Source of the DNA: Sedimentisphaerales bacterium
GTDB taxonomy: Bacteria > Planctomycetota > Phycisphaerae > Sedimentisphaerales > Anaerobacaceae
NCBI GenBank assembly: GCA_016930645.1
Contig: JAFGGH010000098.1
Location: 1-64,000, forward strand
Direction of reading: 5' to 3'
DNA: 64,000 nt
Below are positions 1,917 through 36,850 of this stretch, piece by piece (positions within the stretch are counted from its first letter, which is position 1; the number at the start of each line of letters is the position of its first letter). The notes below the pieces were generated by a model. It saw only the letters and a list, made by a program, of their open reading frames with translations, ran no database searches and was not told the DNA's origin. The position numbers and the translations under genes are program-made.

Positions 1917-2498
1917 ATGGATGGATTAGCAGAATATTTTGTTTTGCTTGGGCAGGGTGAAGATGAAGGCTGGATGCAGATACTGGTCTTTATTGTTATG
2001 GCAGTGATATGGGTAATCGGGGGGATAATGAAGTCCCGTAGTGAAAAACAAAAACAGCAGGAAAAGGTACAAGGTCAACCAGTCCGACCAGTTCGACCGA
2101 AGGCACGGACAATTTACCAGGAGAAAGCACCAAAGCAGCCACCGGCCAGGCCCAAACCAAGACCTTTACAGGAAAGGCCTGCAAAACGGCCGACATTTGA
2201 CAGGATATTCGCTCCTGACAGGATAAAACAAAAAATCATAGATAAAATATTTCCGCAACAAAAACCTGTTGAGCTAAAAACCAAGCCGGCAGTTACATCA
2301 CCAAAACCGACAGAAGCAGCCATTCAAACGAAAATGATTAAGGCCAGAGATGAAAAAGAAAAGGCCGGTGCTGTTGTTGGAGAAGTCGTTTTAGATTTTG
2401 GCGAACCAGAACAATTGCAGGCTGCGATAATACATTATGAAATTCTCGGCAAATGTGTCGGTCAGCGAGAAATTGAAGAGCAAATCTGGTCTCGATAG
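1917..2498 (+). CDS. Hypothetical membrane-anchored protein with Lys/Pro-rich region
   Basis: ORF with one N-terminal TM following floA. Confidence 0.6.
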   Translation: MDGLAEYFVLLGQGEDEGWMQILVFIVMAVIWVIGGIMKSRSEKQKQQEKVQGQPVRPVRPKARTIYQEKAPKQPPARPKPRPLQERPAKRPTFDRIFAPDRIKQKIIDKIFPQQKPVELKTKPAVTSPKPTEAAIQTKMIKARDEKEKAGAVVGEVVLDFGEPEQLQAAIIHYEILGKCVGQREIEEQIWSR

Positions 2499-2584
2499 CA
2501 ATTTTTCAACATCTTCCGGGGATATGGAGAAAATTAGTGTAAACAGCGAGGCAGGGGGGTGGCCCTATATATAATCAAGAACAA

Positions 2585-3487
2585 ATGAATGCTGTGGAAT
2601 TAAATTCAGTTTGCAAGTCTTTCGGGCAGGTTTGCGCCGTTGATAATTTGAGTGTGACGGTTCCAAGCGGTTGTGTTTACGGCTTTTTGGGGCCTAACGG
2701 GGCAGGCAAGACCACAACGCTTCGGATGCTGATGAATATTATCCGGCCTGACAGCGGCAATATCCGGATATTCAGTGACGGGACAATTAGTAAAATAAAA
2801 CATAGAACGGGTTATATGCCCGAAGAACGCGGTCTGTACAGAAAAATGACTGTTCGTGAAACGCTAAAGTATTTCGGCGCAATCAAGGAAGTTAAAAAGG
2901 GGGAACTTGCAAAGAGAATAGAGCAATGGATTGAGCTTATAAAGCTTTCCGACTGGGCTGATAAAAAGGTGGAAGAACTGAGCAGAGGAATGCATCAGAA
3001 ATTGCAGTTCGCGGTTACGGCTATAAATGCGCCGGAGCTTCTTATTCTTGACGAGCCTTTTTCCGGCCTGGACCCTGTAAATCAGGAGCTTATGAAAGAC
3101 ATTATCGCCAAAATACGCGCCGAGGGGAAAACGATTATTCTTTCAACACATCTTATGCACGAGGCCGAAACGCTTTGCGATAATGTACTAATGATAAACC
3201 ACGGCAGGGCGGTACTGGACGGGAATTTAAGAGAGATAAAATCAAGGTATCAGCCTAATGTTGTCAGTCTCGATGTTGATGGTGATACGGGATTTCTGGA
3301 ACAGCTTGAGTTTGTCGAATCCATTCAGAGGCGTAAGGAGCGTCTGGAGGTCAGGCTCAGGGAAAATACCGACCCCCAGGAGCTGCTGATGATGTTGGCA
3401 AGCAGGGTGAAGGTCAGGGTTTTTGAAATCAAACAGCCTACACTGCATGAGCTGTTTCTTAAGTTGGCGGGCCAGACAGATGAATAA
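2585..3487 (+). CDS. ABC transporter ATP-binding protein (NatA-like)
   Basis: Walker A GPNGAGKTT, signature LSRGMHQK, Walker B LLILDEPFSGLD. Confidence 0.95.
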   Translation: MNAVELNSVCKSFGQVCAVDNLSVTVPSGCVYGFLGPNGAGKTTTLRMLMNIIRPDSGNIRIFSDGTISKIKHRTGYMPEERGLYRKMTVRETLKYFGAIKEVKKGELAKRIEQWIELIKLSDWADKKVEELSRGMHQKLQFAVTAINAPELLILDEPFSGLDPVNQELMKDIIAKIRAEGKTIILSTHLMHEAETLCDNVLMINHGRAVLDGNLREIKSRYQPNVVSLDVDGDTGFLEQLEFVESIQRRKERLEVRLRENTDPQELLMMLASRVKVRVFEIKQPTLHELFLKLAGQTDE

Positions 3488-4751
3488 AGTCCTGAGAATT
3501 GCACAACGTGAATATATCGCGACTGTCAAGACGAAGGCTTTTTTTCTGGGTGTATTCGTCGGGCCTATTTTTATCGGTGCGATATTATTTTTTGCAGGAC
3601 GTGTGGATAAAATTGGCTTAGGAGACAGAGAAGCCGTTACAGTCGGTGTTACCGACTTGACGGGAGAATTATCAGGTCAGCTCGAAGCGGCATTTAGACA
3701 GCACAGCGAAAACAATCCTGACAAGAAGATAATTATGCGAGAATATGCTCCAACCAATGATGTAAATTCATTTTACCAGTCAGGCAAAAAGGCCCTTCGC
3801 GAAAGGGTGATAGAAGCTTATTTTGTTGTCGAGAAGGGCGTCATAGCAGGCCAAGGAAGCGTTCTCGAATACACATATAGAACCAAGCCCGGTGATGTTG
3901 ACGTCATATGGAAATGTCAGAGTATCATGAAAAATGTGATTGTTGATGAACGTTGCAGGCAAAGGAACCTGTCTCGCGACGAGGTGAATGCTCTATGGCG
4001 GTTAAATTTCGATTCGATTGTGATAGGCGAGACAATTTCAGATGAGAAAAAAGCAGATAAAGATGATTTTGTTGTAACGATGATGATGCCCTTTGCGATG
4101 ATGTTTTTGATTTACATAGGCATTATATTAATCGGTCAGCATATTCTCAGCAGTGTTATCGAAGAAAAGAATTCACGTATTATTGAAGTTTTATTATCAG
4201 CCGTCAGCCCTATAGAGCTTATGGCGGGTAAGATATTAGGCCTTGTCTGTGCCGGTATGACGGTAATGGCAATATGGTGCCTTATGGCCCTTTCATTAGG
4301 CTCATTTAAAGGTTTCGAGCTTAATTTGTCTTTTTATTTTGTATTGATTTTTATTGTTTATTATGTACTCGGTTTTTTATTTTTTAGTGCTCTTATGGCT
4401 GGCATAGGCTCATTATGCAATACGATTAAAGAAAGCCAGAGCCTCATGACACCCTTAGTTATGATATTAATTATCCCGATGATAAGCTGGTACGAGCTTG
4501 CCAAGAATCCAAATGGTTTGTTTGCCAGGGTTTTATCCATGGTCCCGCCTGTTTCTCCTTTAGTTATGGTTTTACGTCTTTCTTCGAGTAATGAAATTCC
4601 TGTTTATGAAATAATACTCTCTCTCATATTTCTAATGGTTGGTGTAATCTTTGCGTTCTGGCTTGCGGGGAAGGTTTTTAAGACAGGTATCTTAATGTAC
4701 GGCAAAAAGCCAAAAATCAAAGAAGTAATCCGCTGGCTGAGAGAAAGGTAA
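3480..4751 (+). CDS. ABC transporter permease (NatB-like)
   Basis: Start at ATG 3480 overlaps the upstream stop; the longer ORF from 3423 is probably over-extended. MNKVLRIAQREYIATVKTKAFFLGVFVGPIFIG and C-terminal multi-TM. Confidence 0.9.
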   Translation: MNKVLRIAQREYIATVKTKAFFLGVFVGPIFIGAILFFAGRVDKIGLGDREAVTVGVTDLTGELSGQLEAAFRQHSENNPDKKIIMREYAPTNDVNSFYQSGKKALRERVIEAYFVVEKGVIAGQGSVLEYTYRTKPGDVDVIWKCQSIMKNVIVDERCRQRNLSRDEVNALWRLNFDSIVIGETISDEKKADKDDFVVTMMMPFAMMFLIYIGIILIGQHILSSVIEEKNSRIIEVLLSAVSPIELMAGKILGLVCAGMTVMAIWCLMALSLGSFKGFELNLSFYFVLIFIVYYVLGFLFFSALMAGIGSLCNTIKESQSLMTPLVMILIIPMISWYELAKNPNGLFARVLSMVPPVSPLVMVLRLSSSNEIPVYEIILSLIFLMVGVIFAFWLAGKVFKTGILMYGKKPKIKEVIRWLRER

Positions 4752-7754: not shown

Positions 7755-8540
7755 TTGACAAGTATTCTCGAAAGACGCCAATCTTTACACCGGCAGGTTA
7801 AGTTACACAAAGAAGAACAAAGGCAGCTTGCCGGACAAATAGAAAGTCTCGAATCGACAGCTTCAATGGGTGCCGCGGCGGCGATGATAGCTCACGAGAT
7901 AAATAATCTGCTGACACCGGTCGGAAATTACGCTGAGCTTGCGCTTCGGAACATGGATGATAAAAAGCTTGTGGAAAAAGCCTTGAAGCGAAGCCGAGAT
8001 AATTGTAAAAAGGCGTCTAAGGTCGCTGAGGCTATTCTAAACATAAGCAACGGTAAAAAGCAGCCGAAACAAAAGGTCAATTTAGCTGAGCTGGTCGAAG
8101 AAGTCTTCGAGTGTCTATGCAGAGATTTCAGCAAGGACGGCATCACGGTAAAGACGGATATAGATTCATTGCTGACTGTTTTTTCCGAGCCTGTGAGATT
8201 ACAGCAGGCCTTGATGAACCTGATATTAAATGCGCGTGACGCGATGCTGCAAAGAAGTGGTATGCTTACGATTAAAGCCCGTCAGCAGGGAGATTTTGTA
8301 GTAATTGAAATCAAGGATACAGGCTGCGGGATAGAGCCTGAAAACATCGATAAGATATTCGAGCCGTTTTTTACTACCAAAGCCAACTCGCAGGAGAAAA
8401 CCGGTACGGGCCTGGGGCTTGCTTTTTGTAAAAGGGTAATCGAAGATAACGGCGGTACTATTTCGGTCGAATCTAAACCGCAAGCGGGCAGCACTTTTAT
8501 TATCAAGCTGCCGCGACAACAAGGCGGCGAGAGACAGTGA
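7755..8540 (+). CDS. Soluble sensor histidine kinase
   Basis: H-box AHEINNLLTPVGNY, N-box LMNLILNARDAM, G-boxes DTGCGIEPENIDKIFEPFFTTK and GTGLGLAFCKRV; TTG start. Confidence 0.9.
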   Translation: MTSILERRQSLHRQVKLHKEEQRQLAGQIESLESTASMGAAAAMIAHEINNLLTPVGNYAELALRNMDDKKLVEKALKRSRDNCKKASKVAEAILNISNGKKQPKQKVNLAELVEEVFECLCRDFSKDGITVKTDIDSLLTVFSEPVRLQQALMNLILNARDAMLQRSGMLTIKARQQGDFVVIEIKDTGCGIEPENIDKIFEPFFTTKANSQEKTGTGLGLAFCKRVIEDNGGTISVESKPQAGSTFIIKLPRQQGGERQ

Positions 8541-9802
8541 CAGTTTTTATTGAAAACATCGGTCATATTTTACTGCTGGTAATTCTTCTATGCTTCTCAG
8601 CGTTTTTTTCCGGCTCGGAGACGGCGTTTTTTAATCTTACCAAAAAGCAAATCAGCCAGTTGCGCCACAGCCGGCATAAATTCAGTACTCTTGCGGGACA
8701 CGTTGTGTCAAATCCACGTCAGTTATTAAGCTCGCTGCTTTTAGGCAATATGACGGTGAATGTTCTTTATTTTGCTACGTCGAGCTTGCTGATACTTCGC
8801 ATCGAAAAACAGGCCGGAGTTACGGTTGCGACGATTGCAGGTATTATGATATTTATTCTTTTGCTTATATGCGGGGAGATACTTCCGAAATCGATTTCCT
8901 ATTCCAGTTCCGTATCAATCAGTATAATCGCTGCCGCTCCGGCTTACGCACTTGTAAGCATATTGAAGCCGATAGTATCAGCCTTTCAGTTTCTGATTAT
9001 TACGCCTTTCCTGCGGCTGATGATGGGGCATATTCGGGAACCCAAACCTATGAGCACCGATGAATTTCAATCCCTGGCCGAGCAGATTAAACGCAGCGGC
9101 CTGATAACAGACGCCGAGAACAAGCTCCTTGCCGAGATATCCGAGCTGCATATTCTCAAGGTGCGGCACTGCCTTAAACCACGCGTCGATATATTGGCGT
9201 GCGAAATAAACGAAAGCACCGAGCAAATACGTGAAAAGATAGAACAGCACAAGCTGACTAAAATACCCGTTTATGAGCAAAGAATTGATAACATAATCGG
9301 CTTCATATATCTGCGTGATTTATTAACCAGGCCGAGCTCCAGGCCTGCGGATATCTATCAGGCTGCGTATTTTGTGCCCGAGCAGAAAAGTGTCGAATCT
9401 ATGGTCGAGCATTTTCGCAAAACAGGTACGGATACCGCAATAGTAGTTGACGAATATGGCGGTTTAGCAGGACAGATAAGTCTTGAAGACATTGCCGATG
9501 AGATATTTGGCCCAATCGAAGGCAGTGAGGAGATTGAACCGGTCGAACAGCTCGGGCCGATGGAATACCGGCTTGCAGGTTCCACAGCCGTTCATGAATG
9601 GGGCAAAAGTTTCGGCGTTAATTTCCCGCAGGCAAGATACTCGACGGTCGGCGGCTTAGTAACCGCCCTTTTGGGAAAAATTCCAAAGTCGGGTGATACA
9701 GCCCGGTTGGGCAATTTACTTTTTACGGTTGAGCGTGTGCAGAAAAACAGGATTATTACCGTGGTTCTAAAACTGGAGCCGTTAGCAAGTGACGTTAACT
9801 GA
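8537..9802 (+). CDS. CNNM/CorC (HlyC-type) transporter with CBS pair
   Basis: FFSGSETAFFNLTKKQISQLR, DEYGGLAGQISLEDIADEIFG, C-terminal transporter-associated domain. Confidence 0.93.
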   Translation: MTVFIENIGHILLLVILLCFSAFFSGSETAFFNLTKKQISQLRHSRHKFSTLAGHVVSNPRQLLSSLLLGNMTVNVLYFATSSLLILRIEKQAGVTVATIAGIMIFILLLICGEILPKSISYSSSVSISIIAAAPAYALVSILKPIVSAFQFLIITPFLRLMMGHIREPKPMSTDEFQSLAEQIKRSGLITDAENKLLAEISELHILKVRHCLKPRVDILACEINESTEQIREKIEQHKLTKIPVYEQRIDNIIGFIYLRDLLTRPSSRPADIYQAAYFVPEQKSVESMVEHFRKTGTDTAIVVDEYGGLAGQISLEDIADEIFGPIEGSEEIEPVEQLGPMEYRLAGSTAVHEWGKSFGVNFPQARYSTVGGLVTALLGKIPKSGDTARLGNLLFTVERVQKNRIITVVLKLEPLASDVN

Positions 9803-10796
9803 CATACTTCTTTTGTTACTGTTTTTTGTGTTTGTCCTGCTTGCCGGACTCTTTGCCGGGGCTGAGACAGGCGTTTATCAACTTAGCCGGTTACGGCTGA
9901 GACTGGGTGTCGAGCATAAGAAGTTTTCGTATGTGTTACTTAGCTCGGCACTGCACGATGGGGCAGGCTTGTTGATTTCGCTTCTTCTGGGGACGAATTT
10001 GTGTCATTATCTGGCGACAAGCTGTATGACTTATCTTGTCCTTGCCAATAAAGGAACTGAAGGCGGAGTGGCATTTATCGCGACATTGATAGCAACCCCG
10101 ATATTTTTTGTTTTTTCCGAGCTGATACCTAAAAACCTTTTTTACTACCGGGCCGACCAGATTACTCCAGCCGTGTCACCAGTAATATATCTTTTTGACA
10201 GGCTCACAAGAATAACGGGTCTTACATGGCTGTTAAAAGGGTTGAGTAAAATATCGTCAGGATTAAGATTGTCCCAGACGGCAATCAAAAGGACATCAGC
10301 TATAACAACAAGGATAGGTTTAGAGACGATACTGCGCCAGACAAGCGAAGAAGGCATATTGACCACTACGCAGGCGGAAATGATGAGGCGGCTGAGCCAT
10401 ATATCTTACCTGTCAATATCATCGTGTATGATAGGCCTGCCGCAGAGCCGCCTGGTTAATGTTAAATCTTCAAAAGCGGATTTACTAAAGATATGCGAGC
10501 AATACCCGTACACAAGATACCCTGTTTATGACGGCTGGGACAACAATATCATCGGTTATATCAATATCTACGAATGCCTGAGTCCCGGCATAGAGTTTTT
10601 TGGGCTTTATGATTTCCTGAAACCTATACACAAGCTGCCGGCCGATACCAGCGTTATGGACGCCATAGATTATATGCAGGAAAAAGGCGACAGAATTGTA
10701 TTAGTTACCACGACAGACCAAAAGGAAAAGCCTGTCGGGATTTTAACGATGAAGGATTTGGCAGAGGAACTTCTTGGTGAGCTTGCCGAATGGTAA
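9789..10796 (+). CDS. CNNM domain protein with CBS region, shorter paralogue
   Basis: LFAGAETGVYQLSRLRLRLG; overlaps the previous CDS by 14 bp. Confidence 0.88.
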   Translation: MTLTDILLLLLFFVFVLLAGLFAGAETGVYQLSRLRLRLGVEHKKFSYVLLSSALHDGAGLLISLLLGTNLCHYLATSCMTYLVLANKGTEGGVAFIATLIATPIFFVFSELIPKNLFYYRADQITPAVSPVIYLFDRLTRITGLTWLLKGLSKISSGLRLSQTAIKRTSAITTRIGLETILRQTSEEGILTTTQAEMMRRLSHISYLSISSCMIGLPQSRLVNVKSSKADLLKICEQYPYTRYPVYDGWDNNIIGYINIYECLSPGIEFFGLYDFLKPIHKLPADTSVMDAIDYMQEKGDRIVLVTTTDQKEKPVGILTMKDLAEELLGELAEW

Positions 10797-12351
10797 AAAA
10801 GACGGTTTGAGCGATAAGAAAAAATCGTTTCTGAGTATCGCAGCGATTGCGGTGGTTATTCTGCTGCTATCTTTATTTATTTTCGCAAACAGTATGACCA
10901 AACCGCTTGGGCATGATGAGCACATGTATTGCACGGCGGGGTATATGACGGCAAAAGGCGAGCTGATATACAGAGACTTCAGTTATGCCGCTCATTTACC
11001 CTTGCACCCGCTGCTGCTTGGCGGTATATACAAACTGAGCGGAACAAGCTATTATCTTTTAGGCGGGCGGCTTTTATCAGTTGTCTTTGAAATTGGTATC
11101 CTGATTTGTATAGCCGGCATTTATAAAACAGTGATAAAAAATTCTATTTTTTGCGCAACATTTTTCGGTATCACGACGCTGGTTTTATACTGCTTTAATC
11201 CTATAGTTTATTTTGCCGCCGGTTTTGCATGGAACCACAGTATGGTCTTGTTTTGCATCTTACTGTCTTTATGGCTGTTTTTGAGCATCGATTTTTCAAA
11301 GTTATGTGCCCTTCGTTTGCTTATTACAGGCGGCCTGTCAGGTGTGGCTGCATTTACCAGGTCAACAACTGTTTTTATTCTGCTGCTTTTTCTTGTCGGA
11401 GTTTTCGTGTTCGCAGACGGAGGTGTAAGAAAAAAAATAATTAACACTTCATGGTTTATCGCGGGTGCGGGAATTTCCTCTTTGTGGCCTTTGTCGGTAA
11501 TCGTGCGGGCACCGGAGGCCTTCTGGCTCAATACGGTGAAGATACCGTCTCTAAAGGTCGAGTTCCTTTATGAGACGGGATTGGCAAATAATAAGCTCGC
11601 TCTTACGGTATTAGCACTACTTAGTCCGCCCTACCTGGCAATAGTAATAACAGGGTTGGTTGTTACAGCAAGCTTTTTACTCCAAAGGAAAAAAACAGAC
11701 GGTGATATTAAAAGGAAATCTGTTTTTTGCCTTGCTCTTACCGCCGTAATGTTTTTTATAGTGTTCATCCCCCCTACTATGTGGCTGCAGTATTGGTCGA
11801 TGCCGGTTGCCTTTATCCTTATAATTCCGGTTTATCCTTTATATATTTTAAGGGAGAGGATGATTAAGGAAGGACGGTCGGGCATATTGTTTCGCGCGGC
11901 ATTTTATTTTTTAATAGTCTGCGTTCTGCTTAGTTTTGTATACGGGCCGATAAGAGAATTTAAAAAAGTGTACACTGTTTTCGACAAATCCCGCTGGGCC
12001 GCATTGGAGATTCATAACATCTCTAAAGACATAGTGAAAAAGGCCGGCGGTAAACCTATATTAACGCTAAGCCCTCTATACGCTATCGAAGGAGGCGGTG
12101 AAATATATCCGCAGTTCAGCGCCGGGCCTTTCATTTACAGGGTCGCCGACAGGCTCAGCGATAAAGAAAAAGAAATAATGAATGCGGTCGGCTTTAGTGA
12201 TATCGAGGGACTGATTGAACGTCAAAGACCTGATGTCATAATTCTTGGGACAGAACCAAAGGAACTGGAAGAGCCGATTCTCAAGTGCCTTAAGGACCAA
12301 TGGCAGGTAAAGGGCTACGGCGCCAACGGCCCTGTAGCCTACTTTAGGTAA
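10774..12351 (+). CDS. Multi-TM glycosyltransferase-like protein (ArnT/PMT type)
   Basis: KPLGHDEHMYCTAGYMTAKGELIYRDF and many TM segments; start uncertain. Confidence 0.7.
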   Translation: MVSLPNGKKDGLSDKKKSFLSIAAIAVVILLLSLFIFANSMTKPLGHDEHMYCTAGYMTAKGELIYRDFSYAAHLPLHPLLLGGIYKLSGTSYYLLGGRLLSVVFEIGILICIAGIYKTVIKNSIFCATFFGITTLVLYCFNPIVYFAAGFAWNHSMVLFCILLSLWLFLSIDFSKLCALRLLITGGLSGVAAFTRSTTVFILLLFLVGVFVFADGGVRKKIINTSWFIAGAGISSLWPLSVIVRAPEAFWLNTVKIPSLKVEFLYETGLANNKLALTVLALLSPPYLAIVITGLVVTASFLLQRKKTDGDIKRKSVFCLALTAVMFFIVFIPPTMWLQYWSMPVAFILIIPVYPLYILRERMIKEGRSGILFRAAFYFLIVCVLLSFVYGPIREFKKVYTVFDKSRWAALEIHNISKDIVKKAGGKPILTLSPLYAIEGGGEIYPQFSAGPFIYRVADRLSDKEKEIMNAVGFSDIEGLIERQRPDVIILGTEPKELEEPILKCLKDQWQVKGYGANGPVAYFR

Positions 12352-12375
12352 ACAGTATCAACGACGAAAAGTCGT

Positions 12376-12648
12376 TTAGCTTTCGGCTTTTCTTTCGTTG
12401 ATTTTTTCTTTGATGAATTTGCCTGCCTGGCAGCTAATGTCCTTAAAGAAATCGACACACCTGTGAAGCGACACATTGCAGCTTTGGGCAAATTCGTTGC
12501 TTTTGAGCGCCGAGAAGGACCAGCTTGTTTGTGTTTCTGTGCTTAAGGTGTCATTATCGGGGGCGGGGGCAAGGGTGTAAATCGCCGTCGCAAAACCGGC
12601 AAAATAAACAATCAGCAGCAGAATAAATTTACTTCTAAATCCGCGCAT
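12376..12648 (-). CDS. Hypothetical membrane protein
   Basis: N-terminal TM, Cys-containing short ORF. Confidence 0.5.
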   Translation of the reverse strand: MRGFRSKFILLLIVYFAGFATAIYTLAPAPDNDTLSTETQTSWSFSALKSNEFAQSCNVSLHRCVDFFKDISCQAGKFIKEKINERKAES

Positions 12649-12741
12649 AATTTCATCACCCTAAAAAAGTATGGTTTTCCTCTGTAAGGGCCTCTGTAAG
12701 TATCCACTAAAAATATAATAAATAATACCCGGGCGGCAAAT

Positions 12742-14118: not shown

Positions 14119-17100
14119 TCAGAAGTGCAGAATTTCATTGCTCCCTATCGATTTAATTCTATTGATCGCTGCATTAATCTCCTGCATTAATTCATGTGGT
14201 TCTATGCTCTCCGACATACGAACATACTCCAGCACAGAGTGAAGTTCCTGTATAGTATGCTGGTAGTCGAATATGTCTGTTCTGGATTTGGCCTTTTCAA
14301 ATAATTCTTTGCGTATATAGTTATAGGCTTTCTTGGGCAGAAGTTTACTTTCGCGTTCCGGCAGGTTAAAACACCCTGAACTACCATACCTTTCGTAAAA
14401 GTCTTCTACTGTCGGGAGTGCTGCACAAGAAAAAGCTCTCTCACGAATCTTTTGACTGCTCATCAGGTTGTTTATTAAATCAACGGCAAGGTCTTCATTT
14501 TCGGTCCCTTTCAGAATTCCAAGGTACCATTCACCCCAACAGGAAAAATGTTCTGGTTTGCAATTTTGTTCGATGTACCACGACAAAGATACGGGTATTG
14601 GCATGATATCAAGTTCGACATCATGACCAGGATTCCACACAAAATCCTGGCGGGCTCCTTCAACAGACCTTTTGAACGTCAGTATGTCTGTAAAAGTTGA
14701 ATACCAATGCCGGGCAAAAAGCCAATCGGATTCTGTCCCCGATTTATTTTTTTGTGGCGAAGCTGATGGGTATCTTTCGGCAAAAACCTCAGGCTCTAGG
14801 GAACAGTCTCGTGGAATTATTTCATTATTAAACATCAAATAGAGCAGATAATACGCTCGAAACAACTGCTCCAGCATCTCTTCTTTATTTTCTACCTCAT
14901 AATCCTGAAGAACTTTAAAGTTTTTGCCGCCACAGCTCCAGATAAACTCCAGCAGTGTGGCTGTAAATGTGTCAAATGTCTGGGTCTCAATAAGAAATTT
15001 ATATTCCCTTTTCAATTTCTCTTCTGCAATTTCACATAAGGCAATAACTTCCTCCCATGTCTGAGGCACATAACTTTTTTCTTTAAAACTACCGAATAAT
15101 TTTTCTATTGCCAGTGTAATATTTTTTTCTGGGATTTTCTTATTCTGCAATATAGTTTCTTCAATTTTACCCTCGATTTCTGAATGTTTTTTCCGGACTT
15201 TCTCTAAAAATTCATTTTTTTCAACCTTCTCTCTCAATGTATCCAATAAGTCTTTTCTATAAACTACAAAACTAATATTAGCATTATAAGGAACCGCAAA
15301 TACCTTATCTACTGCCCTGGAGCGATAAGGCCGGTGGTAAGGCCGATGAATAGGTCTGGTATCTTTTTGTTCTTTCGGGTCAAGTTCGGAAATTATCTTT
15401 GATTTTCTCTCGCCAAATAACCGCAGGTTCTCATCCTTAATAAGATGCAGCAATCCGCACTGCTCCTTCTCCTTATTCATATGCTTATAGGCCGATTTTA
15501 TTTTGTCTTTAAGCTGATTAATGCAGTCGTTTCTTCTCGATTGGCAAGCATCACACTTACAAAGAATGTTGTCGCTTACTATTTTATCTACGATTATATT
15601 TACACGCTCGTTAAGAATCTTTTCATTTTTGAGTGATTTTTTACTTAGGTTAAGTTCATTAATGTATTCAACGTATTCCCTGTGCGTTCTACCAACTATC
15701 TGCCAAAATCGTGCACGAACTTTTTCTTCATCTGTTTTTTTGCATGGCAGCATTGGCTTTTCGCTTAAATAGTTTATCAGGTCTATCCTTTGCCACAATT
15801 CGACATGCCAGTTCACCCAGTATGTGTCGAAGCTTGACAGATACATATCTGTTTGCTCCGGGATATGAAGAAACCTTCTTAGGCTCGTGAATACACTTTG
15901 CTGGCCGCTCCGGTCGAAAATCCGGAAATCAAGCGCTGGATATGAGTACATTTGTGATACGTCCCGCATAATAAAGGCTTCCCATTCGGTCCTTTGTGCC
16001 GCGTTTTCGGCATACAACATAATTTGCCCGTCTCCGGGATAGGTTTCGTGGAACTTTAATCCCTTTTTTTTGAGGATTTCATACGAACATCGTCGTGCCT
16101 GATTTGGCCCGTGTCTCGACTTAAGCACACGGCAGAAATATCTTTCTTCGAGTCTCTTACGACTGCCAAGGAACTCGCGTTCTTTGTATCGCTCAGGAAT
16201 ACCCATTCTGCGTTGTGACATTGCCGCCTCGTCGATTACAGGTTCTTTGGTTAACTGGATGTCTATGTCACAAAAGTAGCTCTCCGATGCTATACTTGCC
16301 GACTTGGGATTTAATAGGTCATGCTCCGCAATAAACATAGTAACCGCATCTTTGTAATAATCCTGCGATGTATCACAAATGATATTTAAGGCCTCACGAA
16401 TATCTTTAGATGGGTACTTTCCGAGAAGAGCCTTCAACACAATGTCAGCGAAAATATTAAGGGAATCTATAACAATTAAAGTTTTCTTGCCTTCTGAAGT
16501 TTTCTTATCTTCTTCTTTTTTTGTATTATTGGAGTTAAATAATTTGGCCAATGCACATAGTATTTTTTCCTTAATGAGATTAGTAAAATCGTTAAGGATA
16601 GCAGTAATCTTTGAAGTTCGGCTAAGTTTTTTCCTTTTTTCCTTTTTTATAATGTTAGCGATAAATCTGGCCAGTATTTTTTTCTTAAATCTCCGTGTTT
16701 TCAGAAGCTCTGGAACAAAGAGCCCATAGATAAAGATAGAAATCGTAACAGCTACCGCAATAACGATGCCAGCTATCAGACCAACCAACGTGATAAAGAT
16801 GCCAGCTATTATAAGCTCTATTATAATCTTCTTAAAAAGAGTTTTTTGTAATTCCCTTTCGACATCCTCTCGCTTGATTTTGAAGAAGTGAGGTAAATCT
16901 GGTATATCTGGTATATATTTAGATACTTCTCCATACGATTTTTTGAAATGCTCTATTACTTCATCCGGGTCTTTCTCCAATGAGATGAAGACTGCCTCCT
17001 GTTTTTTATCATCAGGCTTGCCCTTACTCGCAATTTCCAAAAAATTGTTAATAATTTGCAAAGCCAGTGTAGTTTTCCCTGATCCTGGCGCACCGCGTAA

Positions 17101-17205
17101 TAAAACGGTGCTTTTTGCAGGCATTCCACCACCAAGCATTTTGTCTAAAGCGTCAATTCCAGTTTTGATAGTAGCTTCATTCTTACTCTGGCTTTTAGTT
17201 CCCAT
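14119..17205 (-). CDS. KaiC/RadA-like P-loop ATPase with inserted TM hairpin, fused to a solute-binding-protein-like C-terminal region
   Basis: TGIDALDKMLGGGMPAKSTVLLRGAPGSGKTTLALQI (Walker A), KTLIVIDSLNIF (Walker B), KIIIELIIAGIFITLVGLIAGIVIAVAVTISIFIYGLFV (TM), CKCDACQSRRNDC, VFAVPYNANISFVVYRKDLLDTL, YVPQTWEEVIALCEIAEE, WGEWYLGILKGTENEDLAVDLINNLMSSQKIRERAFSCAALPTVEDFYE. Confidence 0.75.
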   Translation of the reverse strand: MGTKSQSKNEATIKTGIDALDKMLGGGMPAKSTVLLRGAPGSGKTTLALQIINNFLEIASKGKPDDKKQEAVFISLEKDPDEVIEHFKKSYGEVSKYIPDIPDLPHFFKIKREDVERELQKTLFKKIIIELIIAGIFITLVGLIAGIVIAVAVTISIFIYGLFVPELLKTRRFKKKILARFIANIIKKEKRKKLSRTSKITAILNDFTNLIKEKILCALAKLFNSNNTKKEEDKKTSEGKKTLIVIDSLNIFADIVLKALLGKYPSKDIREALNIICDTSQDYYKDAVTMFIAEHDLLNPKSASIASESYFCDIDIQLTKEPVIDEAAMSQRRMGIPERYKEREFLGSRKRLEERYFCRVLKSRHGPNQARRCSYEILKKKGLKFHETYPGDGQIMLYAENAAQRTEWEAFIMRDVSQMYSYPALDFRIFDRSGQQSVFTSLRRFLHIPEQTDMYLSSFDTYWVNWHVELWQRIDLINYLSEKPMLPCKKTDEEKVRARFWQIVGRTHREYVEYINELNLSKKSLKNEKILNERVNIIVDKIVSDNILCKCDACQSRRNDCINQLKDKIKSAYKHMNKEKEQCGLLHLIKDENLRLFGERKSKIISELDPKEQKDTRPIHRPYHRPYRSRAVDKVFAVPYNANISFVVYRKDLLDTLREKVEKNEFLEKVRKKHSEIEGKIEETILQNKKIPEKNITLAIEKLFGSFKEKSYVPQTWEEVIALCEIAEEKLKREYKFLIETQTFDTFTATLLEFIWSCGGKNFKVLQDYEVENKEEMLEQLFRAYYLLYLMFNNEIIPRDCSLEPEVFAERYPSASPQKNKSGTESDWLFARHWYSTFTDILTFKRSVEGARQDFVWNPGHDVELDIMPIPVSLSWYIEQNCKPEHFSCWGEWYLGILKGTENEDLAVDLINNLMSSQKIRERAFSCAALPTVEDFYERYGSSGCFNLPERESKLLPKKAYNYIRKELFEKAKSRTDIFDYQHTIQELHSVLEYVRMSESIEPHELMQEINAAINRIKSIGSNEILHF

Positions 17206-17519: not shown

Positions 17520-18113
17520 ATGAGGTATATGAAAATGGCTAAAGGAAAAAACATTCTGACTACCGGTGACGTCGCGAAAATCTGCAACGTCGCCCCGCGA
17601 ACCGTCAGCAAATGGTTCGACAGCGGTCAGCTTAAAGGATACAGGATACCGGGCAGCAGAGACAGGCGGATTCCGATGAATGAGCTGGTTCGGTTTATGA
17701 GACAGCATGGAATGCCTACCGATGGGCTTGGAGTCGGGACTACACGTGTTCTGATAGTGGATTGCGACAGGGAACGGGCAGCGAACTTATCCGAGATTCT
17801 TCGGGAAAAAGGCGAATACGAGGTTGAAGAAGTCCATACGACTTTCGAGACCGGTCTTGTGTCCCAGAAATTCGCGCCGCATGTTATGCTTATCAGTCTG
17901 CTTAACGGTGACATTGACGCCGATGAGATATGTAAGAAAATCAGTGACGATGAGGAGCTTCAGACCATAAGGATAATTGCTATGGCTGAGCACCTCAGCG
18001 AGTCCGAGCAAAACGCCCTGCTGCAAAAGGGCTTTGACGGTTATGTTACAAACGGTGCCTCACCGGAAGAAATCATACATAAAATCGAGCAGACGATAGC
18101 TATCATTTATTAA
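17520..18113 (+). CDS. Excisionase-type HTH protein with degenerate receiver domain
   Basis: LTTGDVAKICNVAPRTVSKWFDSGQLKGYRIPGSRDRRIPMNELVRFM, then VLIVDCDRERAANLSEIL...HVMLISLLNGDIDA. Confidence 0.88.
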   Translation: MRYMKMAKGKNILTTGDVAKICNVAPRTVSKWFDSGQLKGYRIPGSRDRRIPMNELVRFMRQHGMPTDGLGVGTTRVLIVDCDRERAANLSEILREKGEYEVEEVHTTFETGLVSQKFAPHVMLISLLNGDIDADEICKKISDDEELQTIRIIAMAEHLSESEQNALLQKGFDGYVTNGASPEEIIHKIEQTIAIIY

Positions 18114-18262
18114 ATAACGCTTAGCGGTAAATCATTACGCCCATGCCAAGGTTTGGCCTCTGGCTTGACTGGATATAAAAAAATTAACGGTGCTTTTGTG
18201 GTTATGCTTTTTATTGCTTTGATATTATACTTTGTATAAAGGCTGAGTACAGGGTCGAGAAT

Positions 18263-18604
18263 ATGCTTGATATTATATCTGACCAATGCGTATCTGTCGC
18301 TTTTCCAGGAAATACATCGATTGCCAAAGTGCTCCAAAGCGTCAGGGAAATTGTCACCAAAGAGCCGCAATACAGTGTCATAGTTGATCTCTCCAAAGTC
18401 ACCATCTTGTCGTCTCGGAATCTTTCCGAACTAATGATGTTGCGTAATACACTGGACCAAAACGGACAGAGATTGATATTGTGTAATGTACCATTTCAAA
18501 TCAAGTGTGAATTCCGAGTAGCCGGCCTGCATAAGGTCTTCGAGTTTTCCCAGGACAAATACAGCGCCATGAATGCCCTGCAGATTAAGAATCTACCCGA
18601 ATAA
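18263..18604 (+). CDS. STAS domain protein (anti-anti-sigma-like)
   Basis: YSVIVDLSKVTILSSRNLSELMMLRNTLDQNGQRLILCNVPFQIKCEFRVAGLHKVFEF. Confidence 0.85.
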   Translation: MLDIISDQCVSVAFPGNTSIAKVLQSVREIVTKEPQYSVIVDLSKVTILSSRNLSELMMLRNTLDQNGQRLILCNVPFQIKCEFRVAGLHKVFEFSQDKYSAMNALQIKNLPE

Positions 18605-19003: not shown

Positions 19004-21061
19004 ATGACTAAAGATACAACTCAAAAGGACATAAATCCCGGAACCAGGGCGTTTATGCAGTTGATTGTCGCGCTTATCGTATCGGCTGTGTTTCCCGCTA
19101 ATCACTTTGCCGCAGATGGTAAAAGTGGCGCTGTACACAACTACGGCAAATCGGGTGATGACCCTGCCACAAAAGAGGAAGATGAATCTGCCATTCTGGC
19201 GAACGATGACATCGCAAAGAACATACAGTACAGGGAATCCACCAGGTATGGAATGACTGCAAATAAAACACCTGTTTCTATTTACAAATATAAGAAAGAT
19301 CAGGACGGCAGCAAGTCCTACAATTTTGATATTGCGAGGCTTTCTTCGCAAGACAGGACTCCTAAGTTCGAGATAAAGTTAAAGGACGATACTATAATCA
19401 ACAGTATTGAAATATACCCGGAACGTTACTATCCGCAGGAAGCACTGAGTGTTAGCAGAGACAAAAAGACATTGACCTTTACTATGTCAGAACATCTGCC
19501 GTATTGCATCATCAATATCAACGGAACTTTGACGGATAAGAATATGGCAGGGGTCCCAATGCTGGCTATCATCAACGATCCGCCTGAAACAGGCAAACCT
19601 GATTTGAATGCCGGCAATGTTCTTAACTTCAAAAAGTTTGCCGCGAACTATCTGAAAGATCACCCTATCACCGATCAGGTGGGCAAAGAGTGTCGCCCCC
19701 CTGGAACAGTTACCGATACAAGCAGAAACACCAATGAGCAATTCACATGGCATTCTGAAGCGGGCAAATATGTGAGCCAAAATGATAGAAACGTTCAGTT
19801 CCCAAATAAGCGTGTGAGGATTAAGAACGACCTATCCGAGGCATTCCAGGCAGCTCTGGAAAAAGTTAGAAAGAGTTCTGAATTAGACACAATTTACTTT
19901 CCCGCAGGCACATACATCTGGTCCGGTCTATGTATCAAAGACTGGGATGGCAGCGGTGCAGACGGCAAACTGAACATCTATCTGGATGAAGATGCGCTGT
20001 TGGTAAATCGGCTCCAGGAATGCAGGGAAGCCATGGAACCGGCTATCGGCATCTGGAATTCATCGAATATAAGTATTTCCGGCCGAGGCATGATCGATGG
20101 AAATGGCAGTTATACCGGCAAAATGGATAGCGGGGATGCACGGGATACGCCTCATCAGGGAGGCGCTATGGTGGTACAATCCACAGACATCACCTTTAAC
20201 GATACGTATGTTCGTGATGTGAAACAGTGGAACTGGGAGTGTCATACGGTTAAGAATGTGACATACAACAACATTAAGGGGCTTTCTCCTTACGACCGAG
20301 CATGGATAGACGGGCTGAATTTAACCAGTGGCCGGAATGTTACCGTCAACGGAGCTTTTACCCTGGGCAATGATGATACCTTTGCCTCCGGCCATTACAA
20401 TCCCAGTGACGAATTTCCTCGTCGCTTTCTCGATGAATTAGACAGAGCGACAGGCGAAAGCAAGACACAAATGGAAGCGATGAAAAACAACATTTGTGCA
20501 GCCGCCGCAATCTACAACAAAGAAAGGTTGAGATGGGATACGGATGACTCTGAAAATATCTCGGTCAATAATACACTTGGCTGGAGCGCAAAAGCGAATA
20601 ATGTCCGCCTTGGACACAACACCCTCTGGAAAGGAGAACCCGGAAAGTATTCGAGCTATAAGCTCAAGAGTTATACCTTAAACAATTTCAACTCTGTAAT
20701 GCGCACTTCCGGTATTGCCATTAGAGCCCAGAATGGCGTCAATAGATGCTATCCTGAGTATGAAAGCCTGATTTTCAGAAACTGTTCCTTTGCAGGCAAC
20801 AGCGCTGAAAATGCAGGGATTCCGGCAGGCTTAGATCTGTACAGCTTTAACCCGGATACAGTTATCATTGAGAACTGCTGGTTTAAGGATCCCACAAGGC
20901 CATTTGTTTTCAGAAATATCAGGAATCTGACTCTTAAAGATGTCTATGTAGGCGGCAAATTGCTGACCGATGTCAAACAGTCACCGATAACTATCGAAGG
21001 AATCGGCAATCTGACCTTTACAGCTAACGGCAAAGAGGTTATCCAAAAGACTTTGCCATAG
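19004..21061 (+). CDS. Secreted right-handed beta-helix glycosidase-like protein (GH28/GH49-like)
   Basis: SISGRGMIDGNG, DDTFASGHYNP, AFQAALEKVRKSSELDTIYFPAGTYIWSG. Confidence 0.7.
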   Translation: MTKDTTQKDINPGTRAFMQLIVALIVSAVFPANHFAADGKSGAVHNYGKSGDDPATKEEDESAILANDDIAKNIQYRESTRYGMTANKTPVSIYKYKKDQDGSKSYNFDIARLSSQDRTPKFEIKLKDDTIINSIEIYPERYYPQEALSVSRDKKTLTFTMSEHLPYCIININGTLTDKNMAGVPMLAIINDPPETGKPDLNAGNVLNFKKFAANYLKDHPITDQVGKECRPPGTVTDTSRNTNEQFTWHSEAGKYVSQNDRNVQFPNKRVRIKNDLSEAFQAALEKVRKSSELDTIYFPAGTYIWSGLCIKDWDGSGADGKLNIYLDEDALLVNRLQECREAMEPAIGIWNSSNISISGRGMIDGNGSYTGKMDSGDARDTPHQGGAMVVQSTDITFNDTYVRDVKQWNWECHTVKNVTYNNIKGLSPYDRAWIDGLNLTSGRNVTVNGAFTLGNDDTFASGHYNPSDEFPRRFLDELDRATGESKTQMEAMKNNICAAAAIYNKERLRWDTDDSENISVNNTLGWSAKANNVRLGHNTLWKGEPGKYSSYKLKSYTLNNFNSVMRTSGIAIRAQNGVNRCYPEYESLIFRNCSFAGNSAENAGIPAGLDLYSFNPDTVIIENCWFKDPTRPFVFRNIRNLTLKDVYVGGKLLTDVKQSPITIEGIGNLTFTANGKEVIQKTLP

Positions 21062-30825: not shown

Positions 30826-32667
30826 ATGGCCCGGTTTAGCTTTGGATTCAAGAAGAATTGGCCCGAGGATGACGGTACAAGAGATATCGAACAAGTCGAT
30901 GAGCAGATAAAGGGTTTGTCGAACCTTTACATACCTGAAGAAAAACTCCAACAGGTCTCTGCGGTAGCGGATATTCTGGACGTACTGCAGCAGCAGGACA
31001 AAATCGACCAGTCTCAGTATGAGCAAATCAGGCACAAGCAGCAATCATCTCCCGGCGGCCAAATCGAACAAATCATTCAGCAAAGCGGCTTTGTCAGTGA
31101 TGAAGATATTTTAGCGGCAAAGGCACAGGTTTACGGAATGGAGTTTCGTAAAATCAGCCCGGAACAGGTCGACAAAAATCTTTTTGAAAAGCTTAATTTA
31201 ACGCTTGATTTCATCAGAGATAATGGGATTTGTCCTGTCAAAGTCGAGAATAATGTCCTTATTGTTGCCACATCAGACCCTGCCAATATCTTTGCTATCG
31301 AGGATGTAAAGCGGCAGACGAGTATGGAGGTACAGGTTGTTGTCTGCTGTGCGTCCGACATCAAGAATATGTGCGAGGTGCTGCATGAAGAGACTATCGA
31401 TTATGATGTCGACGACATTATGAGCGATATGACCGATGTCGAGGTTGTCGAGGATGTTCAGAAGGACTTCGAGGACCTGGAGAGGATGGCGGGTCAATCG
31501 CCGATTATTAAATACGTCAATTATCTTATCAGCAACGCGATTAATACCGGGGCCAGTGATATTCATATCGAACCTCGTGATAAGAGTACAAGGATAAGGT
31601 ATCGTATCGACGGAGTTTTGTTCGAGACCCTTCAGTGCCCCACCAAGATGCACCCGGCGGTTGTATCGCGTATCAAGATTATGTCAAACCTGGATATTTC
31701 CGAAAGGCGTTTGCCGCAGGACGGCAAGATTTCCGTATTAGTCGGCGGGCGGGCTATAGACCTTCGAGTGTCCATCCTGCCCACCAACCGCGGCGAGAAG
31801 GTAGTTATAAGAATTTTAGACAGCAAATCGATTTTGCGCGGTCTGGAAGAATTGGGTATGGAAGGGGATACCCTTGCGGAATTCCGTAAGCAGATTGTTG
31901 TGCCTAACGGAATCTTTTTAGTGACCGGTCCGACCGGAAGCGGAAAGAGTACGACGCTGTATTCGGCAATATCTCAGATGGATGGAGAGAAGCTGAATAT
32001 TTCAACTGTGGAAGACCCGGTAGAATACGAGCTTGACTTCTGTAGTCAGGTCCACGTTAAAGAACATATCGGGCTTAGCTTTGCATCGGCTCTACGCTCG
32101 CTGTTAAGGCAGGACCCGGATATCATAATGATTGGCGAAATTCGTGACCAGGAAACCGCAAAAATCGCTGTGCAGGCGGCTCTTACAGGCCACCTGGTTT
32201 TCTCAACCCTGCATACCAACGATGCCGCCAGCAGCATTACAAGACTCGTCGACATCGGGATTGACGAGTATCTGATTGCTGCGTCACTTAACGGCATTCT
32301 TGCGCAAAGGCTGGTTAGGCGAATCTGTCCGCATTGCAAAGAACCTTACCATGTACCGGACAATATACGTGCAAACATCGAACAGGCAGGTATCGACCCA
32401 AACCAGCTTCAACACGGCACCGGCTGTGAGAACTGCCGACAGAGCGGTTATATCGGGAGGGTCGGTATATATGAAATGCTGATAATCGATGACGCTTTTC
32501 GTGAAATGATTAACAGTGACTGCTCTGTTGCTGCTATGCGCAGGCTCTTTAGAGAAAAAGGCAACAAGACATTATATATTGACGGACTGAGAAAGGTCGC
32601 CGCAGGCATGACCACCATAGATGAGGTCCTCCGTGTTACCGAAATCTCAACAGATGAGCCGGAATAG
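30826..32667 (+). CDS. GspE/PulE/PilB family secretion/pilus ATPase
   Basis: GPTGSGKSTTLYSAI, DPDIIMIGEIRDQETA, CPHCKEPY...GCENCRQSGYIGRVGIYE zinc motif. Confidence 0.95.
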   Translation: MARFSFGFKKNWPEDDGTRDIEQVDEQIKGLSNLYIPEEKLQQVSAVADILDVLQQQDKIDQSQYEQIRHKQQSSPGGQIEQIIQQSGFVSDEDILAAKAQVYGMEFRKISPEQVDKNLFEKLNLTLDFIRDNGICPVKVENNVLIVATSDPANIFAIEDVKRQTSMEVQVVVCCASDIKNMCEVLHEETIDYDVDDIMSDMTDVEVVEDVQKDFEDLERMAGQSPIIKYVNYLISNAINTGASDIHIEPRDKSTRIRYRIDGVLFETLQCPTKMHPAVVSRIKIMSNLDISERRLPQDGKISVLVGGRAIDLRVSILPTNRGEKVVIRILDSKSILRGLEELGMEGDTLAEFRKQIVVPNGIFLVTGPTGSGKSTTLYSAISQMDGEKLNISTVEDPVEYELDFCSQVHVKEHIGLSFASALRSLLRQDPDIIMIGEIRDQETAKIAVQAALTGHLVFSTLHTNDAASSITRLVDIGIDEYLIAASLNGILAQRLVRRICPHCKEPYHVPDNIRANIEQAGIDPNQLQHGTGCENCRQSGYIGRVGIYEMLIIDDAFREMINSDCSVAAMRRLFREKGNKTLYIDGLRKVAAGMTTIDEVLRVTEISTDEPE

Positions 32668-34136: not shown

Positions 34137-35687
34137 ATGACAACTATAGCAGGTATAGACCTTGGAACAACATTTTCGGCACTTGCCATTTTGAATGAAA
34201 TCGGCAAACCGGAAATTGTACCAAACGCCGACGGAGACAGGCTGACACCTTCAGCTATTTTCTTCGATGAGGAAAACCCTGAGCTGGTTCGTGTCGGAAT
34301 AGAAGCGATAAATTCACGTTATCTTAATGTCGAGCGTTCCGTCCGGTGGGTCAAACGACATATGGGGGATGCGGGGTATTTTAAGGAAATCGACGGCAAG
34401 AAGTGGACGGCCGAGGATTTGTCGGCCTTAATTCTGAAAAAACTCAAACAGGAATGCTCCACGGACAATAACAAAATCGAAAAGGCGGTCATCTCAGTTC
34501 CAGCTCATTTTGATGAGATACGCCGCAAGGCGACTATGGACGCGGGTAAAAAAGCTGGCCTGGATGTGATTGCAATTGTTAACGAGCCGGTTGCCGCAGC
34601 GCTTTACTATGCTTCGGCCTGTGAGGTTTCTGGTAAGGTTCTGGTCTATGACCTCGGAGGAGGCACCTTTGATGTAACCATTCTCCAGGTCAAAGGACAG
34701 AACATGGAAATCCTCTGCTCACAGGGAGACCACGCGCTGGGAGGTGTGGATTTTGACAGGAAAGTTCTGGAAATAATGGAAAACACCTACCGGCAGGAAT
34801 ATAACACAGACTTAATCAACAGTGACGAGGACCGAGCTAAGTATGAAGACGAGGCTGAAGACATCAAGAAAACCCTTTCACGGCGGGATATTGCCAAGAA
34901 GATGCTTTACGGCAGAGCGGGCAATATGAGAATCGAGGTTACCCGTTCAATGTTCGAAAATGCAATCAGCTCGCTGATAGACCGCTCGGAAATTTTATTA
35001 GAAGTCGCACTTGACGAAGCCAAGCTGAAACCCGACGAGATAAATAAGGTTTTGCTTGTCGGAGGCAGCAGCAGAATACCAATGGTACAAAAACGTCTGA
35101 CCGAGAAATTCGGTTTTCCACCGGAGACGGCGGTAAATCTTGACGAGTGCGTCGCCCTCGGGGCCGCTGTACATGCGGGAATGACAATGCTTAGAGATGA
35201 CCCTGATTCGGTACCGACAGGAATAGCGGCGGGATTAAAGGATATCAGTCTTACAGATGTATGCAATCACAGCTTTGGAACGCTTTGCGCAGCGATAGAC
35301 AAAAAAACAGGCAGGCGTACAATTGGAAACAGAATAATTCTTAAAAAGAATACCCCCCTGCCATGCGAGCAAACGCAGACATTCTATACAATGACCGAGG
35401 GGCAAACAGAACTTGAAATAACCATTACACAGGGCGAGGACAGTCAGCCGGAATTCGTCAATAAAATAGCGACACATAAATTCGAGCTGCCGCCTTGCCG
35501 CCATGCCAAATGCCCGATTAAAGTAACGTATAAATACGACGTGAATCAGCGCATGCAGTGCAAATTCCATGACTTGGAATCAGGCAGGATTCTTGAAATA
35601 GAGTTTTGTCTTGATGAAGACGGTCAGCTCAATGAGAGTGATAAATGTCAGAACAACGAACAATTAGAGCTTGTAAAAGTGCAATAG
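34137..35687 (+). CDS. Hsp70/DnaK-like protein lacking the extended C-terminal lid
   Basis: AGIDLGTTFSALAI, VLVYDLGGGTFDVTIL, NEPVAAALYYA, VLLVGGSSRIPMVQK; 516 aa. Confidence 0.93.
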   Translation: MTTIAGIDLGTTFSALAILNEIGKPEIVPNADGDRLTPSAIFFDEENPELVRVGIEAINSRYLNVERSVRWVKRHMGDAGYFKEIDGKKWTAEDLSALILKKLKQECSTDNNKIEKAVISVPAHFDEIRRKATMDAGKKAGLDVIAIVNEPVAAALYYASACEVSGKVLVYDLGGGTFDVTILQVKGQNMEILCSQGDHALGGVDFDRKVLEIMENTYRQEYNTDLINSDEDRAKYEDEAEDIKKTLSRRDIAKKMLYGRAGNMRIEVTRSMFENAISSLIDRSEILLEVALDEAKLKPDEINKVLLVGGSSRIPMVQKRLTEKFGFPPETAVNLDECVALGAAVHAGMTMLRDDPDSVPTGIAAGLKDISLTDVCNHSFGTLCAAIDKKTGRRTIGNRIILKKNTPLPCEQTQTFYTMTEGQTELEITITQGEDSQPEFVNKIATHKFELPPCRHAKCPIKVTYKYDVNQRMQCKFHDLESGRILEIEFCLDEDGQLNESDKCQNNEQLELVKVQ

Positions 35688-36850
35688 CCTCGTTACTGAA
35701 ATGGATAACAACAGCTCCAAAAGCCTTGTGGTTCAAAGACAGTATCTGTGCCAAAGATAAAGTATCAGATGAGGTTGTTGACGAACCACAGGATAATTAC
35801 ACCCATGTCGGTAACATGCAATGCCGCATCGAAACAGGTCTCGGATTACAAAACGAACAGGTCTTTACCGTTAAGCTGCTGGGAAAAATACAGACAGACA
35901 AAGCAGGCAGATTAGTCAGTTTGAAACTGAATATTGATGAGTTAAACGAAACAAATAACCAGTATGTGTCTGTTTACCGTCGCAACGAAAACAACAGTGA
36001 CGCACAGCTTTTGCCATTCGAGTATATTTGTGAGCTTGGTAAAATAAATCACAAAGAAAAGGAATTCGCAGACTGGATTTCCGCAGCGAAGATAAAACCC
36101 GAATGGATGCTTTTCAGCCGGAAAGGCAGCCGGCGGATAAGAATAACAGTACTGCTTTTCAATTTGGAAAATTCGGATGTTTACGCACAGTGTGAGACTT
36201 TTTTCGAATTTTACAACCGTGATTTAGGTTACATTGACATAGCAGAAAATGCTGAAAGGGCAAAAGCGCTTGCGGTAACTTTGGCTTTTGCGCTATCGGC
36301 TGCCGACGGAAGAATGTATAAAACCGAAATTGAAAAGATTAAGGAATGGACGCTTAAGACCTTCCAGATTGACAGGGATAATAAAGCGCAAAAGGAACTT
36401 GTAAAAGCTTTGAGGAAAACCATCCGCTTTTTCAAAAGAGGGCAAAATGTAAATATCGAAGATTTATGCAAAGAGCTGTCCGGAATTACCGAAGTCTGGC
36501 AGAGATATGATATACTGTCGCTATGTCTTAATGTTGCCGAGACCAAAGGATTTATCTCCGCAGGACAGATAAAAGTTCTCAAGAATTTATCAAAATGGTT
36601 CAATATAGAGCCGGAATGTTTCCGCGCGATGCTTGAGCGGCTGGCGCCTGTGGATACTCATGAGGTCCAGGACCCGGAGCTGATTTTCGGTTTGCATTCC
36701 AGGCTCAGCAGGGAACAAAAAAGGGAATTGCTAAACAACGAATATAAAAAGTGGAACGCGCGAGTAACCAACTTAAATCCACAGGTACAAAGCCAGGCCG
36801 AGCAGATGCTCGAGCTTATAACAAACACACGCAGCAAATGCCTGAATTAG
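35645..36850 (+). CDS. TerB-like domain protein
   Basis: KALAVTLAFALSAADGRMYKTEIEKIKEWTLKTF...LNVAETKGFISAGQIKVLKNLSKWFNI. Confidence 0.65.
   Translation: MSEQRTIRACKSAIASLLKWITTAPKALWFKDSICAKDKVSDEVVDEPQDNYTHVGNMQCRIETGLGLQNEQVFTVKLLGKIQTDKAGRLVSLKLNIDELNETNNQYVSVYRRNENNSDAQLLPFEYICELGKINHKEKEFADWISAAKIKPEWMLFSRKGSRRIRITVLLFNLENSDVYAQCETFFEFYNRDLGYIDIAENAERAKALAVTLAFALSAADGRMYKTEIEKIKEWTLKTFQIDRDNKAQKELVKALRKTIRFFKRGQNVNIEDLCKELSGITEVWQRYDILSLCLNVAETKGFISAGQIKVLKNLSKWFNIEPECFRAMLERLAPVDTHEVQDPELIFGLHSRLSREQKRELLNNEYKKWNARVTNLNPQVQSQAEQMLELITNTRSKCLN

Follow-up and report, generated by a model that had tools for sequence, protein, structure and literature searches.

ATPases of the KaiC type (PF06745), among them KaiC, PH0284, ArlH and RadA, are widespread, and the input signal is known for few of them. 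They have in common a P-loop core with a Walker A motif, a catalytic-glutamate position, a Walker B motif and a KxR finger strand, and in KaiC, which has tandem cores, the lysine and arginine of the KxR motif act on the nucleotide of the neighbouring subunit. Family-1 solute-binding protein (SBP) modules normally act outside the cell, in nutrient uptake, and those of disaccharide ABC importers include MalE3 (6DTQ), TMBP (1EU8) and LpqY (7APE). PBP folds have also been borrowed as ligand sensors by cytosolic regulators such as LacI/PurR and LysR, which drive DNA binding through HTH domains.

The stretch of DNA analysed here (the window; 64,000 nucleotides of Sedimentisphaerales contig JAFGGH010000098.1) encodes a protein that combines the first two of these modules in a single polypeptide, as a preliminary description of this DNA had proposed and as Pfam and profile comparisons now bear out. 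The protein differs from KaiC-like ATPases in its C-terminal SBP, in the diverged second half of its core and, in the window copy, in a hydrophobic hairpin insertion, and no match to KaiB, the partner of KaiC in the circadian oscillator, was found in the window genome (78% complete). It shares with MalE3, TMBP and LpqY the colinear lobe motifs, a cleft tryptophan and arginine and a closure aspartate, but unlike importer SBPs it has no signal peptide and no adjacent ABC permeases, is fused to an ATPase and carries two large insertions. As proposed below, it would resemble LacI/PurR and LysR in reusing a PBP fold inside the cell for ligand sensing, with a KaiC-type ATPase rather than an HTH domain as partner. 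A literature search, covering open-licence papers only and hence no proof of novelty, found no published description of a KaiC fusion to a solute- or substrate-binding module, in agreement with the earlier statement that no named family has this architecture. In our view the domain architecture is genuine, recurs across genomes and has apparently not been described before; its catalytic motifs are intact, its ligand-binding features are plausible, and its function is inferred.

Domain architecture of the window protein

The fusion gene begins with ATG, runs for 1028 codons without interruption, is preceded by GAAGCGAGGTTCAAAATG and is single-copy in the 2.18-Mb draft genome; every motif quoted in the preliminary description is present in the open reading frame (Table 1).

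Table 1. Features of the KaiC-SBP fusion gene and its divergent neighbour (window coordinates; residue numbers of the fusion protein).
Feature	Position	Strand	Basis
KaiC-SBP fusion protein, 1028 aa, one genomic copy	14119..17205	-	
KaiC/RecA core part 1, residues 13-107: Walker A GAPGSGKTT and SLE77 catalytic-Glu position	16885..17169	-	PF06745; hhalign to KaiC domains
Hydrophobic hairpin inside ATPase, residues ~126-168, Lys/Arg on both flanks, only in window member	16702..16830	-	Hydropathy, alignment
KaiC/RecA core part 2, residues 240-386: Walker B VIDS (D247), E294, D313, KxR finger strand VLKSR (K362, R364)	16048..16488	-	Invariant columns, profile alignment
SBP N-lobe start, residues 393-480, including DMYLSSFDTYW with D460/W463	15766..16029	-	Core alignment with sugar SBP; distant members align on N-lobe
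Variable SBP insertion, residues 481-630: CxCxxCx6C cluster and conserved LRLFGERxSxIISEL	15316..15765	-	Alignment
SBP cross-over strand VFAVPYNANISFVVYRKDLL, residues 632-655, N643 at LpqY N134 position	15241..15312	-	PF01547 match, alignment
Second SBP insertion, residues 656-711, predicted mostly helical	15073..15240	-	Alignment; secondary structure of low-confidence model
SBP C-lobe, residues 712-1000: PQTWEEV, LLEFIW, FARHW834, CWGEW893, AALPTVEDFY, AKSR975	14206..15072	-	hhalign to ABC sugar SBP; PDB profile matches MalE3/TMBP
HTH_17 DNA-binding and response-regulator receiver protein, divergent from fusion gene; putative association	17520..18113	+	

By sequence comparison, a divergent KaiC/RecA ATPase occupies residues ~1-386 and retains Walker A, E77, Walker B and the KxR finger. 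Pfam matches PF06745 over residues 13-97 (E=2.5e-12; 47.1 bits, cut-off 26.6), where the match ends, the domain's second half having diverged beyond Pfam detection; three relatives score 38.7 (G033, locus L023), 27.2 (L024) and, slightly under the cut-off, 26.4 (G159, locus L025). A global profile-profile alignment (hhalign) of the four closest members with four KaiC domains gave a probability of 99.1% and was colinear to the end, pairing the SLE77 strand with the KaiC FEE, the CDIDIQL strand with the KaiC aDnVilL and VLKSR with the KaiC VLKxRG, with Walker A, Walker B (D247) and E294 likewise in line. The P-loop, SLE, Walker B and KxR are invariant across these four members, and the KaiC roles of E77 and K362/R364 are assigned by this alignment.

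Residues ~393-1028 belong, on the evidence of sequence profiles, to the family-1, disaccharide-type SBPs. Pfam matches PF01547 (SBP_bac_1) at residues 603-764 of the window protein (E=5.6e-6; 27.0 bits, cut-off 26), and the SBP halves of the relatives fall under Pfam detection for this family. All seven PDB matches of a four-row C-terminal family profile are sugar SBPs aligned in register, with E-values of 0.008 for MalE3 and 0.14 for TMBP and the remaining five being sequences of a third sugar SBP; since these values are individually weak, the assignment is carried by their consistency and by controls. A genuine ABC sugar SBP from genome G474, which itself matches MalE3 and TMBP at 1e-95 to 1e-88, aligns with the family C-terminal profile over 223 columns (hhalign P=95.8, E=7.8e-9), and phylum scans with that profile also retrieve true ABC SBPs adjoining permease genes (in G474 and G810). 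Against a profile of genuine SBPs the family profile reached 94.3% and three distant members reached 95.7%, the N-lobe also being aligned in two of these three, and a reversed profile and ten column-shuffled profiles all stayed at or below 0.5%. The outcome named beforehand as damaging, a C-terminal half without SBP homology, was thus not what these comparisons returned. AlphaFold models built from a four-sequence alignment were unusable (mean pLDDT 39.6 for the full protein and 36.3 for the SBP half), so the fold assignment rests on the profiles; Foldseek with the low-confidence full-length model returned structures of KaiC and of other ATPases, but since none reached E<=0.001 we gave these matches no weight.

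The N-terminus is the KaiC core itself, in which sequence and hydropathy reveal no export signal, lipobox or signal-like hydrophobic segment, and the earlier reading that a signal peptide is absent therefore stands. The hydrophobic hairpin reported between Walker A and Walker B also exists, and with Kyte-Doolittle means of 2.94 (19-residue window from residue 131) and 2.02 (the adjoining window from residue 150) it is the most strongly hydrophobic stretch of the protein. The further proposal that the two halves are fused through it was mistaken: it is inserted between strand 2 and Walker B, within the ATPase domain, and the KaiC core continues directly into the SBP at ~386-393. A cysteine cluster noted earlier is present with a corrected spacing, C-K-C-D-A-C-QSRRND-C (CxCxxCx6C rather than x5), within the variable SBP insertion; it is not clearly conserved in the alignment, and we dropped its reading as a metal cluster.

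Relatives and their distribution

Counting the window, the fusion occurs with constant domain order in seven genomes. Planctomycetota account for five of the six relatives, and the sixth lies on a KSB1 contig. A single KaiC domain precedes the SBP in three of the six; in the other three the SBP-like half comes after an additional or degenerate RecA domain. A scan of 89 same-family genomes yielded a 1040-residue homologue on a single 5.06-Mb contig (G033; CP070806.1) that matches from the P-loop to the C-terminus. A two-row C-terminal profile then recovered a 1312-residue member from another family of the same order (G159; PLMU01000006.1) and a distant 1396-residue protein from elsewhere in the class (G444), the latter with two KaiC cores before the SBP, a tandem arrangement comparable to that of KaiC. 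Wider profiles added a 1048-residue relative whose second core is degenerate (G245) and a 741-residue copy, cut off at its start by the contig, with one degenerate core before the SBP-like part (G572).

Searched with a single sequence, 85,000 species genomes gave no relatives; searched with a three-row alignment, the same genomes gave three loci, of which two were already known and the third was the 1264-residue KSB1-contig member. A gene on that contig has a C-terminal sorting-like tail, a feature that we take to be associated with the FCB group, and we therefore think that planctomycete contamination is not the case. The distribution is patchy, with the fusion in 3 of 162 genomes in the order and 3 of 398 sampled in the class. 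No relatives were found among viral contigs and plasmids. Matches to phage records arose only through helicase P-loops, and a further candidate, G039, was rejected as an ordinary double-KaiC protein.

These relatives bear on the possibility, raised beforehand, that the open reading frame is an artefact missing from all others. The window copy does lie on a MAG contig, and it might be imagined on that account that two unrelated genes were joined by chance or during assembly, but the identical architecture recurs in independent assemblies of different genera, including the single-contig genome, and six relatives have it whole or in part. The colinear junction across them excludes an assembly artefact, and we regard fusion by accident as having a negligible probability.

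Cleft residues and possible function

In mycobacterial LpqY, trehalose cannot be bound without any one of E241, W259 and R404, and N134 has a ~100-fold effect; D80 matters for stability and has been connected with closure of the domains (PMC7949145). We mapped these positions through the G474 protein and common motifs rather than by direct alignment to LpqY, using the motif register RNW to RHW, PRP to KSR, the cross-over strand, and mDxxW to fDxxW, which places W259 at W834, R404 at R975, N134 at N643 and D80 at D460 of the window protein. W834, R975 and D460 are retained in all six aligned members, and the N643 column reads N/S/N/N among the four close members. By the same register no equivalent of E241 is evident in the fusion family, which leaves room for a ligand other than a disaccharide or for a loss of binding.

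Our main reading, to which we give roughly even odds (about 0.5), is that the protein acts as a cytosolic, ligand-gated KaiC-type P-loop ATPase switch that is also membrane-anchored in the window organism. Its N-terminal cores would assemble into a ring, with ATP bound and hydrolysed at subunit interfaces through Walker A and B, the E77 position and a trans-acting KxR finger; because the lysine and arginine of the KaiC motif reach the neighbour's nucleotide, an active ring is what the sequence leads us to expect. An SBP of the disaccharide-binding (MalE/TMBP/LpqY) lineage would have moved from the export pathway to the cytoplasm, where closure of the C-terminal clamshell would follow the binding of a small ligand, probably sugar-like, in the cleft. 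As the SBP begins ~25-30 residues past the KxR-finger strand, closure could displace the finger, thereby switching the ATPase activity or the state of the ring. In the window organism the hairpin would anchor the ring to the inner membrane face, and the positive charges on both sides of it fit both ends lying inside the cell, so that the SBP would be cytosolic.

We suggest, tentatively and with somewhat less than even confidence, that these proteins form a family of signalling ATPases, not described before, that work in the cytosol and whose KaiC-type ring is gated by a clamshell of the sugar-binding-protein type. If so, the logic of the ABC importer, in which a binding protein controls an ATPase, would have been rebuilt intracellularly on an unrelated RecA-fold motor. 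The fusion suggests that a family-1 SBP domain has been reused inside the cell, apart from transport, and a ligand-binding module placed shortly past a trans-acting catalytic strand would make metabolite control of a KaiC-type ring testable on one purified protein.

A ligand-gated switch has to be weighed against other roles for the same architecture. It is conceivable, if rather doubtful, that the SBP module has lost ligand binding and works as a scaffold or protein-protein module whose insertions, serving as docking surfaces, set the partner specificity of the KaiC-type ring. The large and variable insertions of the SBP half (~150 residues in the window protein against ~400 in L025 and L024), the want of an evident E241 equivalent and the very divergent SBP parts of G245 and G572 are consistent with such a role, but the cleft tryptophan and arginine are among the few residues that all aligned members retain at ~20-40% identity, which would be unexpected for a pure scaffold. 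We think it improbable that the hairpin is the functional core of a lineage-specific sensor, holding the ring beside a transporter, or a machine of the envelope, to be sensed from inside by the SBP half. The strength of the hydrophobic segment and its positive flanks, fitting cytoplasmic ends, agree with this arrangement; no sugar transporter gene is adjacent, and the five other full-length members have hydropathy maxima below 1.6. Without a comparable segment in the other members examined, this reading cannot account for the family, and membrane tethering, as suggested in the preliminary description, does not extend to the family as a whole.

A biological-conflict NTPase whose SBP-like part senses invader-derived or altered metabolites seems very improbable to us. 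The patchy distribution, such as gene loss or horizontal transfer could produce, would accommodate it, and the term "conflict-related" used earlier has its sole support in one distant relative, G245, which lies near DNA cytosine methylase and HATPase_c_3 genes. Against it, PADLOC matches no defence family beyond generic P-loop ATPase similarity, the proteins have no effector domain, viral relatives were not found, and other members adjoin housekeeping genes, as in G159, where the fusion gene precedes thrS-infC-pheS.

Gene neighbourhoods

Among the family neighbourhoods read we found no gene that recurs beside the fusion or that points to its output, and no ABC permease genes in the immediate neighbourhoods; at L024, sulfate-type ABC genes lie ~5 kb upstream of the fusion gene and are not adjacent to it. 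In the G245 locus (L036), positions 8369-12705 hold, convergent to the KaiC-SBP gene, a cytosine-5 DNA methylase, a HATPase_c_3 (MORC/Hsp90-like) protein and a 406-residue protein without a Pfam match, a row that looks like a possible modification or defence cassette. In the G572 locus (L057), a gene read from its sequence as a membrane histidine kinase (2430-3605) is convergent to the partial KaiC-SBP gene.

The window genome, 78% complete, yielded no further PF01547 protein besides the fusion; its other KaiC-family matches are weaker than the fusion protein and, judged by size, look like the replicative helicase and RecA. The fusion gene stands between a DegT aminotransferase gene and the divergent HTH/receiver gene, which makes up a small regulatory pair with a gene for a STAS-domain protein (17520-18604). 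Elsewhere in the window are a secreted pectate-lyase/GH28-like protein (19004-21061), with weak Pfam matches slightly under the cut-off, and a GspE/PilB-type ATPase gene recognised by sequence reading (30826-32667), which lies upstream of genes for an Hsp70-like protein of 516 residues and then a 401-residue protein of unknown type (34137-36850).
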